IMG/VR virus record: IMGVR_UViG_3300030419_000612
Span: 1-39,185 of that record
Strand: one strand, 5' to 3'
DNA from: a virus
DNA length: 39,185 nucleotides
The notes under the pieces: generated by a model
What the model saw: the letters and a program-made list of their open reading frames with translations, nothing else
Told to the model about the DNA's origin: nothing
Databases searched by the model: none
Shown here: one piece after another, positions 344-34,778 of the stretch
How the letters are laid out: every line of letters starts with the position of its first letter
Numbering within the stretch: position 1 is the first letter of the stretch
Made by a program: the position numbers and the translations under genes

Positions 344-421
344 GGTCTCGTAGCTCAGTTGGATTAGAGCAGCGGTCTTCTAAACCGCAGGTCGCAGGTT
401 CGAGTCCTGCCGAGATCGCCA
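344..421 (+). tRNA. tRNA-Arg (anticodon UCU), CCA encoded
   Basis: Folds as a full cloverleaf: acceptor arms 344-350 and 411-417 (one G-U pair), D-stem GCTC/GAGC (353-356, 367-370), anticodon stem GCGGT/ACCGC (372-376, 384-388) with loop CTTCTAA and anticodon TCT at 379-381, five-base variable region, and T-arm GCAGG-TTCGAGT-CCTGC (394-410). Discriminator base is G418 and CCA (419-421) is encoded. It reads AGA (and possibly AGG) arginine codons. It begins 10 bases after the reductase stop, so it could be cut out of the same transcript. Confidence 0.95.
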
Positions 422-23031: not shown

Positions 23032-23670
23032 TTATTCCTCCAGTTTTACCCCTACGTTCATACTAAAAGAACGTCTTTCTCCTTCTGACTGAAACGGATA
23101 CACTGTGTGCATGAGATATTTAGGAAACAGATAAAAATCTCCGACTTCAGGGCGTATTGTTAAAGTGTGGCTGTTAAATTCTTGCGGCACTCCGTACACA
23201 AACTCAATGTGTCCTCGTGACGGTTTTCGTGTTTTAGACTCTTCTTCAAATTCTTTTTCTACATTTTCAGGTAGTGATAAGTACCCTACAGATGAAAGAG
23301 AACAGTATGTATGTATATGAAGCGGATTAAACTCTCCTGCGAACTGGCGCACATACCACGCTGTTTGTAACTTAAATGGAACGCTTCTCTCTGTCTCTCT
23401 TACTGCCTTAATGTAAGAATCCACTAATGCTTCAAAGTATCCATCATATTTTTTACGTAAGTTTTCAGGAACTCTTAGTTCTTGAGTTACTTTACCAACA
23501 AGATTATGTGACCAATCGTAGTCTTTTACTTTCTTTTCATCTTTTATCATCTTCTCAAGTTCTTCGTTGTAATCGTCAACGAGTTCTTGAGGTAGAGTAG
23601 ACTTAACAATGTAAGGTCCAAAAGGACGCACCAACATAAAAGGTATTGCTTTTTGTTCTTGTTCAGACAT
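23032..23670 (-). CDS. 2OG-Fe(II) oxygenase, family 5 type
   Basis: 212 aa. The core has NPLHIHTYCSLSSVGYLSLP (histidines 118 and 120), then GHIEF, TIRPEVGDFYLFPKYLMHTV (histidine 188) and ERRSFSMNV (arginine 199/200). This order fits the 'putative 2OG-Fe(II) oxygenase' family common in marine phages: iron ligands near the HxH and the distal His, and an Arg for 2-oxoglutarate. The enzyme would hydroxylate an unknown substrate in the cytoplasm, using 2-oxoglutarate and O2. It ends directly before the decoration-like gene and follows another oxygenase by one base. Confidence 0.8.
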   Translation of the reverse strand: MSEQEQKAIPFMLVRPFGPYIVKSTLPQELVDDYNEELEKMIKDEKKVKDYDWSHNLVGKVTQELRVPENLRKKYDGYFEALVDSYIKAVRETERSVPFKLQTAWYVRQFAGEFNPLHIHTYCSLSSVGYLSLPENVEKEFEEESKTRKPSRGHIEFVYGVPQEFNSHTLTIRPEVGDFYLFPKYLMHTVYPFQSEGERRSFSMNVGVKLEE

Positions 23671-23671
23671 T

Positions 23672-24310
23672 TTACTTACCCCATTCTTTTTTTAGATAAT
23701 TCTGTATAAGAACGGATTTAGTAAAAACAGATGCTGCCTCTTTGTCCTTTGCTAAAAATTGATTTACTTCATATAGGTTTTTTAATATAAAATATTCTTG
23801 ATACGAAATGTTAGAAGACATCCAACCTAGTATGTTTGTTCTAACTCCAGCGGTTATCTGTGTAACACCGTGGGGATACGTGATAGGAAAGATAGCTGCT
23901 TGCCCCATTTCCAGTTTTCTAGAAATAACGCCCAACTCTGTTTCAAAAAATAGCTCTCCACCCTCATAGTCGTCATCCAGATTAATAGTAAAACCATAGT
24001 CAAAGAAGATATTATTGGACTTTGGACTTGCTTTAAAATTGTCAACATGGAGATTATAAAAGTCTCCCTTTTCGTATCTGTTATAATAATTTACTGAAAC
24101 TCTGTTGGGACAATACACTGTATCAATATAGTGTGTGTCGTACATCTTAGAGATAATCAGTTTGCGTACTTCATCTGGTACGCCCTGTGATTCTTTGTTC
24201 TTCTTGATATCCGATATTGGTTGTGTTTCGTTACCGTCACCGAAAGTATCGTTGTTAATTGCATTGTAGCAGAAATCTGCTTCTTCTTTATTAAGTAGCT
24301 GTACAAACAT
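23672..24310 (-). CDS. 2OG-Fe(II) oxygenase, prolyl-4-hydroxylase / PKHD-like
   Basis: 212 aa. Iron ligands are clear: H88-x-D90 in NLHVD and H147 in YPHGV, with R157 in GVRTNILGW for 2-oxoglutarate. The jelly-roll strands GFTINLDDDYEGGELFF and MGQAAIFP fit prolyl-4-hydroxylase-type and YbiX/PiuC-like enzymes. It would hydroxylate a protein side chain or small molecule. The ATG follows a good ribosome site (AAAGGGG) just after a terminator-like hairpin. Its neighbours are capsid-type genes, so a virion protein might be the substrate, which is inference. All metal ligands are present, so it is probably active. Confidence 0.88.
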   Translation of the reverse strand: MFVQLLNKEEADFCYNAINNDTFGDGNETQPISDIKKNKESQGVPDEVRKLIISKMYDTHYIDTVYCPNRVSVNYYNRYEKGDFYNLHVDNFKASPKSNNIFFDYGFTINLDDDYEGGELFFETELGVISRKLEMGQAAIFPITYPHGVTQITAGVRTNILGWMSSNISYQEYFILKNLYEVNQFLAKDKEAASVFTKSVLIQNYLKKEWGK

Positions 24311-26934: not shown

Positions 26935-27417
26935 TTAAAGGAACATCTTATAAAATTCAAAATTACGATGCTCCAATTCTTTTACTTCGCCAGAACCATT
27001 GCGATAGTATCTCTTGTATTCCTTGTGCATTGTTTCCGTATCATTATCTATAACTGCAGATACAAACTTAGGAAACTTACGCAGTCCGTTTGCACCAAGG
27101 TTGAAAACAAAATCAGTAAACATTTCTTTACAATCCTGCGGAAGGCTGTCAAAGTCATCGCTGGCAAACTCAGAGATAACACGACTAGCACCATCGCAAG
27201 CATTTAGTATATCGTGTATTAGCAGCTTTTCTATTTCGTCGTCACTAACACCCTCTTGCATCCACTCTTCACTGTCTAGTAGTTTGTGTCCGTAACCAAT
27301 AGTATCGTTACCGCCTTCTGGTGATTTGTGAGGGTACCACACGCCATCTTGAAAACCAGCTTTACCGCCGTTCTCGACACGCTTAATGTATTCTATGAAC
27401 TGTCCGCGTATTTCCAT
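26935..27417 (-). CDS. Lysozyme-like endolysin (GH24-type)
   Basis: 160 aa. Residues 10-45 hold the lysozyme signature: YIKRVENGGKAGF with E15 as probable catalytic acid, and DTIGYGHKL (threonine 39 to histidine 44), as in T4-type muramidases. The rest is helical with DFVFNLGANGLRKFPKFV, typical of the C-terminal lobe. It cleaves the glycan chain of peptidoglycan at lysis. No signal peptide or membrane anchor is seen, so it presumably reaches the wall through the holin. The spacing between E15 and the TIGYGH block is longer than in T4 lysozyme. It overlaps the preceding gene's stop (TAATG). Confidence 0.85.
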   Translation of the reverse strand: MEIRGQFIEYIKRVENGGKAGFQDGVWYPHKSPEGGNDTIGYGHKLLDSEEWMQEGVSDDEIEKLLIHDILNACDGASRVISEFASDDFDSLPQDCKEMFTDFVFNLGANGLRKFPKFVSAVIDNDTETMHKEYKRYYRNGSGEVKELEHRNFEFYKMFL

Positions 27418-30200
27418 TATGCTGCCTCGTCAAGAACCTTATCTACAAAGCCACCATCTTTTTTATTTATAGCGAAAAATAAATGACTTTTTACTTTGTA
27501 TGTTTGTCGCATATTTTTTGCCCAAACTGGTGGTTCCTTCAGTGCGCTAGGATTGTAGTAATGTGTAGCACCATTGGTAACGTCTTCGTCTTCACCTTGA
27601 ATTATTCGTATCGCTAATTCTTTTGCTTGTTTGTAAAGATTGTCGTTAGATTTCGTATTCATCATACTCATAAAGTTTTCGTACTGTGGACCTTGGTATG
27701 CTTCGGGATCATTTAAATCTGGAAGAATTGCTGAAAATTGTTTCTTTGCCAGAATAACTTCAGGCACAGTTTTACCAAATCTTTTGCCGTACTTAGTTCG
27801 ATTGTTTATAACGTGCATTACGGCTCTCATACCTTCTATGCCGTCTCCTCTTGCCTCACCCACAGCAACGAGAGCCATCATTTGAACAGGATGCAATTTA
27901 CTAAATTTAGACATAATTGTTTTAGCTTCTTGCATTTTTTGTGAGCTAGATGTTGCCTTTTCTTCAGGTGCAGCGGTTTTAGGTTCTGCTGGTTCATCAA
28001 TAACAGGTACCGTGTCACTGGTAAATCCTGATTCATCTACCTCTATTTCTCTCATAGGCTCTGTTCGTTTTTGCATAAAAGGGTCTGATCCTGAAAAAAT
28101 TGAAGGTTTCAGATTATCTTCAAACGTATCTAAACCTATTTTATCTCTTGATTCAGGAGAAGCTATTTGTTCTGTCATAGGTGTTTGCTTTTCTTCTTCA
28201 ATAGGTACACCTTTTACTTCATCTCCTTTTTCATATCCCTGTGGTGCAGCAAAACCTTGTTGTACAACACGGCCCATTGGATCAACCATCGGCGGTTGTT
28301 GTGCTTGCCTACGTGTGCGCTCAAGAGCTTGCATCTGATTGTAAGCAGAAGGCGCTTGCTGTGACGCATCAGCTTCTAGCACTGCAGCACTTGTTTGCAT
28401 CTGTTTCTTTTGCGGATCATCTACAAACCCGCCTTGTTGCATCATTGGTACCTGTGGTGCTGGAGCCGCCTGTGCTGGTGCTGGTGCAGGTTGTGCTTCA
28501 GCCATAGGCTGCTGCTCCTGCATGGATGGTTGCTTTTCTTCTTCAAGACGTTTACGCAAATCAAGACCTTCTTGCCTGATTTTATCAAGATACTTTTTGC
28601 CACCGCCAAAGAACGGTACCAGCATTTTAGGAATGTGGTATTCATAGTTACTTACTTTAATTGGTACATCATCAGTTGGGTCTAGGTCTGTGCCTTTAAG
28701 ATTAACACCGTTCTTCATTGCTAGGTCGATGGCTTCTCTAGCGTAACGGTTAAGGTCTTTTAGACCGACTAGCAATACTGTCTCGTAGGGTAGAATGTAG
28801 TCACCCTCATCAGCTTCGCGGGGTATGTCGTCCTTCACAGATACTGCACCGCCCTGTTGTGGTTGCGCTGCTTGTTCGTTGATCATGCCAAGATTGGACA
28901 TGTCGGCTTCTGCACCCTGTGCTACTTGACCGCCTTCTTGGTAGAAACTTCCCCAGTCTCCAGCACCCATGTCTGAACCAAAGTCACCACCTGCAGAATC
29001 ATCAGTTCCTCCAACGCCGCCGTCACCGCCGCCAACTCCAATATCTTCTTCACCTGGAGCATCTGGATCACCTGCTTGGGGACCGCCTATGTCTATTCCA
29101 CCGCTGCCTGAGTCTCCACTCGACCCTCCACCGTAATCAAAACTATCTTTCTGACCATAGTTTTGATCTAAAACTTGATTTACATAATCTCTATTTTCTT
29201 GTGATATTCCAAACCACCCATCTCCTCTTGCATCTATAACATCTAACGCAGCAAATGGATCAACATCTGCTAAAGCTTGAAAGGATGCTGTCGTACCCAT
29301 TGCACTAACTTGACCACTCGGACTCATCCATGTACCGTCTTTTTGGTAGCCTGGAGTAAAAGCCCCTCTAGAATACGCATCTCCCGTCCCCAAAAGGTTT
29401 AGTACAGGTTTAATCCAAGGTTTTTTACTGCCGAATACAGGATGGTTTTCAAATCTGTCTTTTGCCTTTTGATGATAAACATCTATATCTATTACTTTAC
29501 CTGTATCTGGGTCCACAGGCTGTCCAAGACTATTCATGTGAGTAATGCCTTGTTGATAAGCAGCAAGCTGGGCTTCATTTATTGCGCCCGTTGCAATCAT
29601 ATCATCAATTTGTGCTGCCGTGTAACCCTCTAAAGTGGTGTACACATTTTCAGACTGATGCATCGACATTAAAGTTGTTCCTGGTGAAACAAAAAATTTC
29701 GCAAATGTTGCAAGATTAATATCGGGATTAGCTATCGGTGAAGCATAGTTTGTATCTTCGTCTGCAAAGCTAAGACCTCCCTCATCAGCTTTACGTTGCG
29801 TCTGTATGACAGATTTTGGTGCGACAACTGGTGCTACTGAAAACTCAGGTTCAGAGGTATCTGGTTTTGTTCCTTGCACTACACCTATGCGACCCCTAAA
29901 GGAACCAAACGGAGAAGAAGTAAATGTAGAAAGACCACTGGGCAGCAAACCTGACTGTGCTGCAGTGCGATAGAATTTCTGTGCAGAAACACCTTCAGGC
30001 ACTTCAGGCAATAGTTCATTCTGACGAACACCTATGCCCTCAGTTATCTTTTCAACAATTTCAGGCCAGGAAAGCTTTTTCTTACCAGAAACAGAAGACG
30101 TAACACCTTGTGGCGTTATTGTTCCAGGTTTAATTGTTGTGCCTGTAGACTCTGTTAGAGCGTCTTCAAATTGTTGGGTGATTTCCTCTAGTGTTGCCAT
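27417..30200 (-). CDS. Large protein with C-terminal SleB-type cell wall hydrolase domain
   Basis: 927 aa. About residues 770-915 match the SleB/CwlJ hydrolase family: LVAVGEARGDGIEGMRAVMHVINNR, a QFSAILPDLNDP segment, and a block TNGATHYYNP. The N-terminal 380 residues are Pro/Gly-rich and mostly disordered; a Gly/Asp-rich linker (about 360-420) is followed by a conserved-looking READEGDYILPYETVLLVG region. Three Gly-Gly-x-Val motifs occur: EGGQV, QGGFV and DGGFV. Enzyme and linker suggest a virion-associated murein hydrolase used at entry, not lysis. It follows the portal region and precedes the lysozyme. Confidence 0.8.
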   Translation of the reverse strand: MATLEEITQQFEDALTESTGTTIKPGTITPQGVTSSVSGKKKLSWPEIVEKITEGIGVRQNELLPEVPEGVSAQKFYRTAAQSGLLPSGLSTFTSSPFGSFRGRIGVVQGTKPDTSEPEFSVAPVVAPKSVIQTQRKADEGGLSFADEDTNYASPIANPDINLATFAKFFVSPGTTLMSMHQSENVYTTLEGYTAAQIDDMIATGAINEAQLAAYQQGITHMNSLGQPVDPDTGKVIDIDVYHQKAKDRFENHPVFGSKKPWIKPVLNLLGTGDAYSRGAFTPGYQKDGTWMSPSGQVSAMGTTASFQALADVDPFAALDVIDARGDGWFGISQENRDYVNQVLDQNYGQKDSFDYGGGSSGDSGSGGIDIGGPQAGDPDAPGEEDIGVGGGDGGVGGTDDSAGGDFGSDMGAGDWGSFYQEGGQVAQGAEADMSNLGMINEQAAQPQQGGAVSVKDDIPREADEGDYILPYETVLLVGLKDLNRYAREAIDLAMKNGVNLKGTDLDPTDDVPIKVSNYEYHIPKMLVPFFGGGKKYLDKIRQEGLDLRKRLEEEKQPSMQEQQPMAEAQPAPAPAQAAPAPQVPMMQQGGFVDDPQKKQMQTSAAVLEADASQQAPSAYNQMQALERTRRQAQQPPMVDPMGRVVQQGFAAPQGYEKGDEVKGVPIEEEKQTPMTEQIASPESRDKIGLDTFEDNLKPSIFSGSDPFMQKRTEPMREIEVDESGFTSDTVPVIDEPAEPKTAAPEEKATSSSQKMQEAKTIMSKFSKLHPVQMMALVAVGEARGDGIEGMRAVMHVINNRTKYGKRFGKTVPEVILAKKQFSAILPDLNDPEAYQGPQYENFMSMMNTKSNDNLYKQAKELAIRIIQGEDEDVTNGATHYYNPSALKEPPVWAKNMRQTYKVKSHLFFAINKKDGGFVDKVLDEAA

Positions 30201-30426
30201 CTTTATGTGCCTTTATTGTAGCTTGTGTAGCATCTTTCAGATTAATTAAGGTTTCCAGTAAAGCCAGCTTGCCCTGCAGACGGCGCAGTTCCAATTCCGA
30301 TTCCACCACCACCAACTGCTGTCTCATCGTTTGGGCCAGTTCCTTGAGGTAGCTTTCCAGCCCCTGCCATTCCAGATTGCTGTTGGCCAGCGGCAGCAGC
30401 TTCTGGGCTTGCTCCTTGTTGATCAT
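30166..30426 (-). CDS. Small helical protein overprinted on the 3' end of the portal gene
   Basis: 86 aa, in another frame of the same strand. The product, starting MINKEQAQKLLPLANSNLEW, is a helical Leu/Gln/Glu-rich protein with LRRLQGKLALLETLINL, a pattern I associate with small phage head genes. An AAAAGGA ribosome site, 10 bases before the ATG, lies inside portal codons. It overlaps the portal by 185 bases and the hydrolase gene start by 35. The portal's last ~60 residues in the overlap are Gly/Ala/Gln-rich low complexity, as expected for overprinting. Confidence 0.72.
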   Translation of the reverse strand: MINKEQAQKLLPLANSNLEWQGLESYLKELAQTMRQQLVVVESELELRRLQGKLALLETLINLKDATQATIKAHKDGNTRGNHPTI

Positions 30427-32377
30427 TTGGCATAAGTCCTTTTAGTATTTCTGCAAAGATTGCTGCATCGTTAATATCGTTTACGAGTAGGTCTGGTTCG
30501 ATATCTTGACTGATTGCAAGCTCTCGAATCAGGTTCGGTATTTTAATAAACGGTGCCAGCATCGGATTCGCAACTGTCTGGAGCAAAGCTGTTAATCGTT
30601 GGGTGCGTACCTCTTTCTGTATTACTGCACTGGTTCCTTTTGGTTTAATTTCCAGATCACCAATCATCTCTGGTGTCTTGTCGTTAAACTGCATGTTCCA
30701 CTGAAAGAAAGCTTCTCCTAGTGGTTTAAGAAGAAAGTCATCAATGTTCTTGATAACAGTCTTTACGCTAAGTCCTGCACTGGACATTAACATGCTTAGT
30801 CCAGCAGCAGTTCGTCCTGTTCCTGTAACACCTGTTTGCCCGTGTACAATAGACGGTATGCCTGTCTGCTCGTCAGCAAGTTGCCTCGCCTTGTCAAACA
30901 TCTGCACGTTCTCTACTGCAGTGCTGGGAAACTTAATGCCGTTCACGGCTGTGCCTGTAACACCAGACTGCCGCCTAAATATCTTACCTGGGTATACGTC
31001 CATTGTTTGACCAGGAACAAGCTGTGTTTCGTCTATGTCAAACACAAGATTACCTGCCAATGCTAGGTTGTCGATAGCCATACGAATGTGGCCATTCATC
31101 AGCATCTGGCTATCTTCCATGTTCTCCGCTACGCCCACACCAAACAACTGGTAGGGATTGAGTTCATACGGAAAAGCCTGAAACGGTATACGTGCAGGAA
31201 TAAACGGATTGGCTACGAACCGTAGTATCTCGTTGCCAGATATCCATATGTTTACTTGAACGGCATCACCTTGCTGAATTTCTTTCGGAGCTTCGATACC
31301 AAGCTCTTCAGCGAACTTAGCGTCCATTGCACCCCAATACTCAAATACTTCAAAACGGCGTCCTTGATAGTTAGGATCATCGTCATTAGCATAGAGAGTG
31401 CTTTCATAATATTTTTCTTCATAGTTAGGCCCACCTTGTAAAACATTTTCTATTGCTTCTTCGTTAAAGAAAGGGCGATTACTCAGATCACGTATCTGTT
31501 CTCTATTCATGCGGTGGCGCTGAATAACGTAATCTGCATCTCCCAAACTTGTAGCACTTGGGTCGGGATAAAAGTCCCAACAACTTACTGCTTCAACACG
31601 AGGCACAACCTTGTTTGCGGGAGAGTATTCACCGTTCTCCCAATTGTGTACTGTTTTGTTGTAATTGAATGGACCTTTTATTATTCCTGTGCCAAGCAAC
31701 GCACACTCGAATATAGCGTGACGTAGTACAGTAACAGCGTTAGTGTCTAGTAGCTGGTCTTGTATGCACGTCTCCATGTTACGTGCCGTCTCTGAAGCAG
31801 GACTAATTTGTGGTTCTCCTGCACGAGAGGGACCAGAAGCTAGATCAGCACCTTCGTACTTGTCTTCAAGACCACTAAGCATTGCCGCTGTCGGTCCCTG
31901 TGGACCTTGCTCCATCTCTGTAGCTTGTGTGGCACCTGGAAGCAGTTCTCTACCATCACCTTCAAAACCAAAAAGATCAGTTTGTTCTGGCTGCTCTTCT
32001 TCCATTGGAACTTTAGACAGATGGGCAAACTTGTCGATACCCTCTGGTATGGGTGTTGATTCAACAGAAATAGGAAACTTGCTGTTAGCAAATAGTATGT
32101 CAATAATTTGCCCATACGCAGCAAGAACCTTCGTCTTTGTTATCTTTACAAAAACTTGGCTACGCTCGTTATCACGATACTGCGTAGTAGTGTCGTAGAT
32201 ACCACGATAGTTCTTGTAGGCTTTTAGCCACCGATCTTCGTCGTTTCTACGTCCTGTCTCTGCATCTGAAAACCGTGCCTTAACAGTACCAATAATACTG
32301 TTAAAGTCTTCACGGTTCTCACCTAGATCAATTAGCCCTTCTGTCTCTCCGTCGTCTAGAAAAGATTCGTCAGCCAT
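30242..32377 (-). CDS. Portal protein
   Basis: 711 aa. Conserved-looking portal segments are present: RWLKAYKNYRGIYD near residue 48, the VFVKITKTKVLAAYGQIIDILF helix, CWDFYPDPSATSLGDADYVIQRHR, and a C-terminal half with LADEQTGIPSIVHGQTG and GRTAAGLSMLMSSAGLSVKTV. The dodecameric ring forms the DNA channel at one capsid vertex, linking terminase, capsid and tail adaptor. An acidic, proline-rich insert (about residues 120-195) is not part of the core. The last ~60 residues are low complexity and overlap another gene. AGAGAG lies upstream of the ATG. Confidence 0.88.
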   Translation of the reverse strand: MADESFLDDGETEGLIDLGENREDFNSIIGTVKARFSDAETGRRNDEDRWLKAYKNYRGIYDTTTQYRDNERSQVFVKITKTKVLAAYGQIIDILFANSKFPISVESTPIPEGIDKFAHLSKVPMEEEQPEQTDLFGFEGDGRELLPGATQATEMEQGPQGPTAAMLSGLEDKYEGADLASGPSRAGEPQISPASETARNMETCIQDQLLDTNAVTVLRHAIFECALLGTGIIKGPFNYNKTVHNWENGEYSPANKVVPRVEAVSCWDFYPDPSATSLGDADYVIQRHRMNREQIRDLSNRPFFNEEAIENVLQGGPNYEEKYYESTLYANDDDPNYQGRRFEVFEYWGAMDAKFAEELGIEAPKEIQQGDAVQVNIWISGNEILRFVANPFIPARIPFQAFPYELNPYQLFGVGVAENMEDSQMLMNGHIRMAIDNLALAGNLVFDIDETQLVPGQTMDVYPGKIFRRQSGVTGTAVNGIKFPSTAVENVQMFDKARQLADEQTGIPSIVHGQTGVTGTGRTAAGLSMLMSSAGLSVKTVIKNIDDFLLKPLGEAFFQWNMQFNDKTPEMIGDLEIKPKGTSAVIQKEVRTQRLTALLQTVANPMLAPFIKIPNLIRELAISQDIEPDLLVNDINDAAIFAEILKGLMPNDQQGASPEAAAAGQQQSGMAGAGKLPQGTGPNDETAVGGGGIGIGTAPSAGQAGFTGNLN

Positions 32378-32645: not shown

Positions 32646-34778
32646 TTAAAAACCTTTTAAAAAACCTTCGTACTTTCGTTCTAAAGCAGACTTAGTTTGG
32701 ACTGCTTCTCTTTGCCTTGTTGTGATATCTGCAAAACCTTTTTTAGAATCTGTTATGGTTGCTTCAGCTTCTGCTGGAGATTGAAACGTTGGTGATAACA
32801 TAGCTCTTCGTTCTCTTGCTGCTTGTAATGCTGCCTCTCTAGAACGATATGCTTTATCTTGAGATATTCTACTTTCTACTTCTCTTTTAGTTTTTTTCTC
32901 TGGAATAACAAGTTGATCTGATAAATCTAAATCTTTACTTCTTCCTCCTGATTTAAGAAGTTCTAGCAATTGATCATCAGAAGCAGCCTTTAAAGCTGCC
33001 TCTGGACCTGCTGTTGGGCTGGGAGTAACCGTGTGAATACCAGCCTCTAAAAGCACTTCTCCTGCCTTTGATCTTCCTGGTCCTAGCAACATTGCTGTAA
33101 GACCTGCTACACCTAGTTTTCCTACTTTTCGTGCAGATGCTACCGCACCTGATCTAAGTTTTTGTTTTTTTATTGCTTTTAATTGATCTAAACCAGACAA
33201 TAAGCGACGTTCATATTCTTCAGGATCAGTATCTCGTATCTTCTGAATTTCATCTATTTCATCTTGTGTAAATACACCTGCTTTCAATTCTCTACTAAAA
33301 GAGTAAGGTGTTACAGGACGCTCTGGTTCGCCTAAAACTTCTTTTGCTTGTTCATCTACAGAGGGTCGCCCCTCTTGTCTCACCTGTTTTAATTCTTGTT
33401 GAAGTTCGTTTAGTTTACGCTGTTTCTCGATTTGTCTTTTAGTTGATTCTGTTTGTTTGTCTAAATCCTGTTCGTCTTGCTGTGTAACTGCTGTTTCCTG
33501 CTGTACCTTTACTTGTTCTTGTGCTGCAGTTTCAGGAATATCTACATCATCAAACACCAATGCAGAGTTTTCAGCCGCTTGAGGAAACCTGAAAGTAGTT
33601 AAGGCTGCTTTCGGTCCTGCTTTATTTGTTTGTTTAGAAAAGATACTAAAGAATCTATCGGCAGCTTGTGATTCACGACTTGGACCTTCATCTGCAAACT
33701 TTACCTGATAGTGTTCAATACCTGTTGATCCACCAACAGTATGTCCTAACAATCTATCAGCGGTTTCTGTATCAAATTCTTTTTGTACGACTGTAAAGAA
33801 ACCTTTTCTCAGCATTTTAAATTGAAAGGGAACTTCTTTACCTGACGCTTCCTCTGTTATTTTTAAACCTGCTTCTTCAAAAGCCTCTCTTATTTTTGGA
33901 ACAATATGTCTTGATTTTAAACCACTTAATTTTCTAGAAAAAAGTTTATCCCTAGTAACATCTTCTTTTAAAGCATCCTCTCTTAGTTCATTTAAAACCT
34001 GAAAAGCACTTTCTCCAAGCTGATAGCTTGTTACCTGCCCTTTGTTAAAAATTTGTACTGTTTTAGTTTCAGGATTTAATCTGTAAGATACAGTGTCTTT
34101 TGTTACTTCTTCTCTGCCTAAATCAATTCTTTGAAAATCTTCGTCTCGTATTCCTGTTAAAAGTTTTAATACGGCAAAACCCCGTGCTTCTTTATCCTCT
34201 ATTCTTGAGATACCTACTTCTATGGCCTTCGCAAAAGATTCAAATTTAGGATAAACTAATGTTGGTCCTGGCGCACGTATATACTTTTGAAAGTTAAAGG
34301 CATCTTGAGAACCTAAATTAATTTTCTCATATTCAGTAACAGCATTTGCAGTTCCAGGGCTTTTGCCTAGATTTATCATTGATTTTAAATATGTACCAAT
34401 AACTGCTCTTTTTCTAGGAGAAAACTTCTGCTCCTTCATTAGTTGAATTATTGGTCCTATTCTTGAATTACCATCCTCATCAATAAAGTTAATTGTACCA
34501 TCTACAGGTCTATCAAGAACCTCATCAGTAAATCCTATTTCTCGTAAAGCTTTTAAAGCTCCTACTAGACCAGCTTGTGCTTTTTTTATATCAGTCGCAG
34601 AGGTGTCTCCTCTCTCTATAGCTTTTTGTTTTATTCGTTCTAGATTAGCTTCGTATGCTTGTCTGATAGTTTTAGGTTCTTGAGATTCAGCACTATCATG
34701 CAACATCAACATTTCTACTGGAGTGTTGTCTTTTGTTGTTACTACTCTATTAGCAGCGGGTATGTTCTTATCAGCCAT
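32646..34778 (-). CDS. Tyrosine-recombinase-domain protein in the packaging cluster (710 aa)
   Basis: Residues about 35-165 look like a helical core-binding domain. Residues about 195-365 match a tyrosine recombinase catalytic domain: LKLLTGIR (R211), a beta-strand lysine near 246 (FNKGQ), KMLRKGF (K321, R324; the usual His of HxxR is Lys), LLGHT (H346) and EHYQV (Y357, nucleophile). All but the second-box His are present. The remaining ~340 residues form a Gln/Glu-rich coiled coil (about 415-475) and Ala/Arg-rich helices with a hydrophobic stretch near 550-565. Its place between large terminase and portal is unlike ordinary integrase genes. It may have a structural or ejected role. Confidence 0.75.
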   Translation of the reverse strand: MADKNIPAANRVVTTKDNTPVEMLMLHDSAESQEPKTIRQAYEANLERIKQKAIERGDTSATDIKKAQAGLVGALKALREIGFTDEVLDRPVDGTINFIDEDGNSRIGPIIQLMKEQKFSPRKRAVIGTYLKSMINLGKSPGTANAVTEYEKINLGSQDAFNFQKYIRAPGPTLVYPKFESFAKAIEVGISRIEDKEARGFAVLKLLTGIRDEDFQRIDLGREEVTKDTVSYRLNPETKTVQIFNKGQVTSYQLGESAFQVLNELREDALKEDVTRDKLFSRKLSGLKSRHIVPKIREAFEEAGLKITEEASGKEVPFQFKMLRKGFFTVVQKEFDTETADRLLGHTVGGSTGIEHYQVKFADEGPSRESQAADRFFSIFSKQTNKAGPKAALTTFRFPQAAENSALVFDDVDIPETAAQEQVKVQQETAVTQQDEQDLDKQTESTKRQIEKQRKLNELQQELKQVRQEGRPSVDEQAKEVLGEPERPVTPYSFSRELKAGVFTQDEIDEIQKIRDTDPEEYERRLLSGLDQLKAIKKQKLRSGAVASARKVGKLGVAGLTAMLLGPGRSKAGEVLLEAGIHTVTPSPTAGPEAALKAASDDQLLELLKSGGRSKDLDLSDQLVIPEKKTKREVESRISQDKAYRSREAALQAARERRAMLSPTFQSPAEAEATITDSKKGFADITTRQREAVQTKSALERKYEGFLKGF

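Follow-up and report, generated by a model that had tools for sequence, protein, structure and literature searches.

Overlapping genes are usually regarded as long-lived, and it can rarely be decided which of the two frames came first. This question is raised by a frame of 86 codons at the end of the portal gene in a virus record of 39,185 bases (the window). From the letters alone, a preliminary description had proposed that this frame is a gene overlapping the portal gene by 185 bases and the next gene by 35, and these coordinates were confirmed. The small gene is labelled S below and the conserved end of the portal T. The features of the locus are as follows.

30166..30426, minus strand: S gene, 86 aa, ATG start (open reading frame, homologues, omega, AlphaFold)
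30437..30443, minus strand: Shine-Dalgarno-like AAAAGGA, 10 nt 5' of the S ATG
30242..32377, minus strand: portal gene, 711 aa (PF23899 SU10_portal, 7.6e-30; phrog_332, 8.7e-75)
30242..30426, minus strand: S/portal overlap, 185 nt, portal codons 651-711, S in frame +1
30251..30328, minus strand: portal tail motif DETAVGGGGIGIGTAPSAGQAGFTGN, sharing its bases with the C-terminal half of S
30271..30276, minus strand: codons of the invariant Gln-Gly of S, residues 51-52
27417..30200, minus strand: next gene, 927 aa, C-terminal cell wall hydrolase (PF07486, 2.6e-17), overlapped over 35 nt by the 3' end of S

HMO-2011-type phages are an abundant group of ocean phages. The portal of the window is 47-54% identical to those of HMO-2011-type isolates, and its head protein matches phrog_267 (4.7e-61). 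As judged by the portal match and the closest isolates, the window phage belongs with the HMO-2011-type podophages: like HTVC033P, HMO-2011 and the CRP phages, it has a related portal and major head protein in the same gene order (PMC9038755), and in the phages of this type that were examined S either follows or overlaps the portal.

In a first set of 80 IMG/VR relatives, found by their portals, every relative with a complete portal end contains an out-of-frame S-family ORF, which starts about 180-215 nt before the portal stop. Further scans led to 201 distinct overlapping loci. The S frame is open in all 201, so that the stops which the preliminary description had named as a possible refutation do not occur in these relatives. 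All 201 also have an ATG preceded by a Shine-Dalgarno-like motif, in line with the proposal that S has its own ribosome site, whereas the motif precedes only 10% of the +1-frame ATGs in the portal body, taken as control. In 94% of synonymous codon shuffles of the overlapping portals the 75-codon +1 frame acquired a stop, and the S homology signal disappeared on shuffling. Selection was measured on disjoint pairs of close relatives from three clades, with rates expressed relative to the upstream synonymous rate. For changes that are silent in the portal and alter S, omega was 0.21, 0.31 and 0.31 in the three clades, indicating purifying selection (against that rate, p between 1e-35 and 1e-103). 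For changes that are silent in S and alter the portal tail, it was 0.45, 0.70 and 1.00, the tail of the HTVC103P clade being without measurable constraint. S is therefore the more constrained partner, and the frame-specific bias suggested earlier as a check was found. The frame is thus open beyond chance and under purifying selection of its own. That it might be a spurious frame held open by portal codon bias is already refuted by the synonymous shuffles, by frame-specific selection, by conservation of the Shine-Dalgarno motif and by the separately encoded S homologues described below; we give this reading practically no credence. On the sequence evidence, HMO-2011-type podophages have in S a genuine conserved small gene, which belongs to their head/packaging region and has its own start inside the portal gene.

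It had also been anticipated that annotation pipelines may drop such a gene. In GenBank, none of the four cultured SAR11 members (HTVC033P, HTVC103P, HTVC104P and HTVC115P) has S annotated. CRP-1, CRP-345 and Aeromonas phage 1233 lack the annotation as well, and the HMO-2011 and Manatee Spring podophage records contain a truncated S. The gap in the SAR11 annotations distorts core-gene and proteomic work.

The conserved core of S comprises residues about 1-76, followed by a variable C-terminus, and the Gln-Gly at residues 51-52 is invariant across 84 aligned homologues. The AlphaFold model based on these 84 homologues is a four-helix hairpin (pLDDT 91), which agrees with the helical product predicted at the outset. 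The portal model, whose alignment left out the added genome and late-scan rows, is poor overall (mean pLDDT 59). In it the last helix ends at residue 648, the overlap starts at residue 651, and almost all of residues 640-711 have a pLDDT below 50; the S overlap is thus predicted to fall on a portal tail without modelled structure.

Clear homologues of both S and T occur, separately encoded, in HMO-2011-, Roseobacter- and Rhizobium-phages, and in HMO-2011, CRP, Rhizobium and gammaproteobacterial phages an S homologue follows the portal with little or no overlap. A profile of overlapping S and one of separate S could be aligned in register across 73 columns (hhalign E 1e-17), and when a consensus of the separate form was used in an open phage search, it matched S within the annotated 'portal' of HTVC033P (E 3e-5). 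The portal C-terminus had been described as low-complexity. It is indeed Gly/Ala/Pro/Gln-rich, but it is not featureless, since it carries a conserved motif, D.TG.GGG.IG.G..P.PGE.GFTGN, that is common to phages with nothing overlapping the tail. The window's version, DETAVGGGGIGIGTAPSAGQAGFTGN, is homologous to the tails of non-overlapping relatives (hhalign E 6.5e-14), and between overlapping and separate forms the motif spans 34 residues at 44% identity; tail homology is weak in the gammaproteobacterial phages. Synonymous recoding of the portal lowered the S score from 33.6 to 1.3 bits, and synonymous recoding of S lowered the tail score from 22 to -2 bits. Each frame thus holds information of its own, since the homology of either product is lost when the other frame is recoded. 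Both proteins are under selection in the separate phages (N/S rate ratio 0.18 for T and 0.38 for S), and there the tail is more constrained than S, the reverse of the overlapping phages. As far as these comparisons go, the portal tail is conserved and, in most lineages, subject to selection. A search for S vestiges under separate tails, and for tail vestiges under separate S, gave no clear signal beyond partial overlaps. Apparent losses of S are mostly due to S having moved 1-1.8 kb downstream or to a contig end. At L382, L206, L212, L265, L380 and other loci, inserted sequence displaces S by 1-1.8 kb from the portal, and retention of S therefore does not require that it adjoin the portal.

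Relatives with and without the overlap, separate homologues and frame-specific selection together polarise the history of S and T. S models match beside tail-less portals in L603, a Marinomonas genome (48.6 bits), in L600 (23.8 bits) and in Pseudomonas phage Rollin (23.4 bits), and tail models found nothing at the portals of these three. S thus has a wider range than T, and T is under weaker selection in the overlapping phages, as is expected of an overprinted sequence. Because S stands beside tail-less portals where the T models are silent, the order seems largely decided: S would be the older and the portal tail would have been overprinted on it. The preliminary description had left the order open, and its option that the small gene is older and the tail was extended over it is thereby upheld, whereas the title given there, of a gene overprinted on the portal's 3' end, runs in the wrong direction. 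Read literally, that title would have S born de novo on the portal tail, as might be suggested by the shortness of the protein and by the frequent de novo origin of overlapping genes. However, S is recognisable beside portals that do not have the tail motif, it is more constrained than the tail, and the low-complexity partner is the portal tail; we consider a de novo origin of S very improbable. In L603, L600 and Rollin, about 70 nt of S already lie within the portal gene, likewise in frame +1, so that loss of a single portal stop could give rise to the long overlap.

In 352 of 352 overlapping loci the Gln-Gly of S lies at -2 nt from the portal GExxF-type motif, whereas in the separate loci S is placed about 150 nt farther downstream and may be in any frame. 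It can be argued, though this is no measurement, that the tail-bearing portals descend from an overlapping ancestor, because convergence at one fixed register is implausible, and because shared bases can be copied and then specialise, while unrelated sequences hardly come to share bases. A register test on the separate phages, in which the compatibility of S and T with one DNA was best at the true register (rank 1 of 84), lends this modest support.

Portal trees were tested with L603 and L600 as outgroup. Placing all overlapping portals in one clade was rejected by the AU test (p 4e-60), as was placing all separate portals in one clade (p 7e-42). In another test, joining the HMO-2011 and gammaproteobacterial clades was not rejected (p 0.34). 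When the tree was rooted with Rollin, PunY3 and Pmp11, the outgroup branches were long and the deep order was without resolution. Since neither arrangement has a single origin and the register is fixed, repeated decoupling is indicated. The trees point to about three or more such events: one or two for the HMO-2011 and gammaproteobacterial phages, one in L474 and one in L542/L447. The latter two separate loci group (100/100) with the overlapping L508 inside a mainly overlapping clade; up to the tail, their portal ends share about 95% identity with that of L508. L542 has kept T and has a stop in the old S frame. The tail of L447 has drifted, after separation, towards a CRP-212-type form (GGGGGAN), which may reflect recombination.

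The opposite order of events would be one in which separate genes were ancestral and a deletion fused the portal into S, the new alternative-frame tail then converging on the old motif. The separate arrangement does occur in two clades that flank the overlapping ones, gammaproteobacterial and HMO-2011, and the unusual ability of S and the tail, even in separate phages, to share DNA at the true register would ease convergence. Yet a motif of 34 residues would have had to re-evolve at 44% identity, under double constraint and at one fixed register, and, as a single origin of the overlap is rejected, it would have had to do so more than once unless there were reversals. This order of events appears improbable to us.

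We favour instead a history in which S lay downstream of the portal before the portal gained its present tail. Loss of the portal stop codon would then have let translation of the portal run on through S in the alternative frame, and the disordered, Gly-rich T would have arisen in this way, overprinted on S. Many lineages, including those of the window and of the SAR11 phages, would have retained the overlap, while in probably three or more others S may have been copied or replaced just downstream of the portal and the S frame under T would have decayed, both proteins persisting thereafter as separate genes. We assign this history as a whole a probability of about 0.75. Within it, the separate S genes could have come in by horizontal transfer, S of other phages replacing the overlapped S, instead of arising as its duplicates. 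The S proteins of L542/L447 are only 25-32% identical to that of L508, a high divergence in view of the near-identity of the portal ends, and no relic of a tandem duplication was detected in the DNA of the separated phages (rank 7 of 121 lags, not significant). In most cases the separate S immediately follows the portal, the position expected of a tandem copy, and we lean slightly away from replacement. None of the loci carries both an overlapping and a separate S.

The favoured history would provide a natural escape series, in which two proteins that once shared their bases parted on several independent occasions within one phage clade, both surviving; this we think probable, with some reserve. 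If true, close relatives such as L508 and L542/L447 offer a comparison of the overlapping with the separate state, and the separated lineages serve as natural controls for the cost of the overlap to each protein. In simulations, 3' extension of the upstream gene was the commoner route to terminal overlaps on the same strand (Fonseca et al. 2013, PMC3887535). The present overlap resembles these in that an upstream gene on the same strand is extended over the 5' part of a downstream gene; it differs in being long (about 170-220 nt), in that the tail became a conserved element, and in the proposed later separation of the pair in several lineages. As in the viral overprinting cases covered in the passages found of Pavesi 2021 (PMC8227390), one frame would be ancestral, the other de novo, and selection is asymmetric. 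Unlike in those cases, the de novo part would here be a tail on an old protein and not a new protein, and these passages describe no overlap that was resolved with both products surviving.

As regards function, S had no convincing match to a curated family in Pfam or PHROGs when all 84 members were used, the best PHROG matches being about 1e-4 and to families without function; PDB matches were all at E 0.5 or worse, and Foldseek likewise gave no significant match from which a function could be read. A type III secretion co-chaperone fold of the EscE/PscE type was considered and rejected, its PDB matches being at this same level. No relevant paper was found in which virion proteomics names S. 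Because S keeps its place next to the portal even in highly diverged phages, and because in gammaproteobacterial phages it lies between the portal and head genes, we tentatively suggest that S could be a portal-associated helical factor of assembly or of the virion, made beside the portal, although we would put this at somewhat below even chances. A bolder extension would be that T, born from an alternative frame of S, binds or regulates S.

Some other features of the window were noted. The 927-aa protein encoded directly after S (27417-30200, minus strand) has a Gly/Pro/Gln-rich middle, and the gene after S varies greatly in length among relatives. Between the large terminase and the portal lies a 710-aa ORF (32646-34778, minus strand) with no convincing family (best PHROG match 2.9e-4); at this site the cultured relatives examined have small genes only, or nothing. 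An adjacent pair of 2OG-Fe(II) oxygenase genes (23032-24310, minus strand) is located near the major head gene, and a tRNA-Arg (tct) gene (344-421, plus strand) lies near one end of the record.
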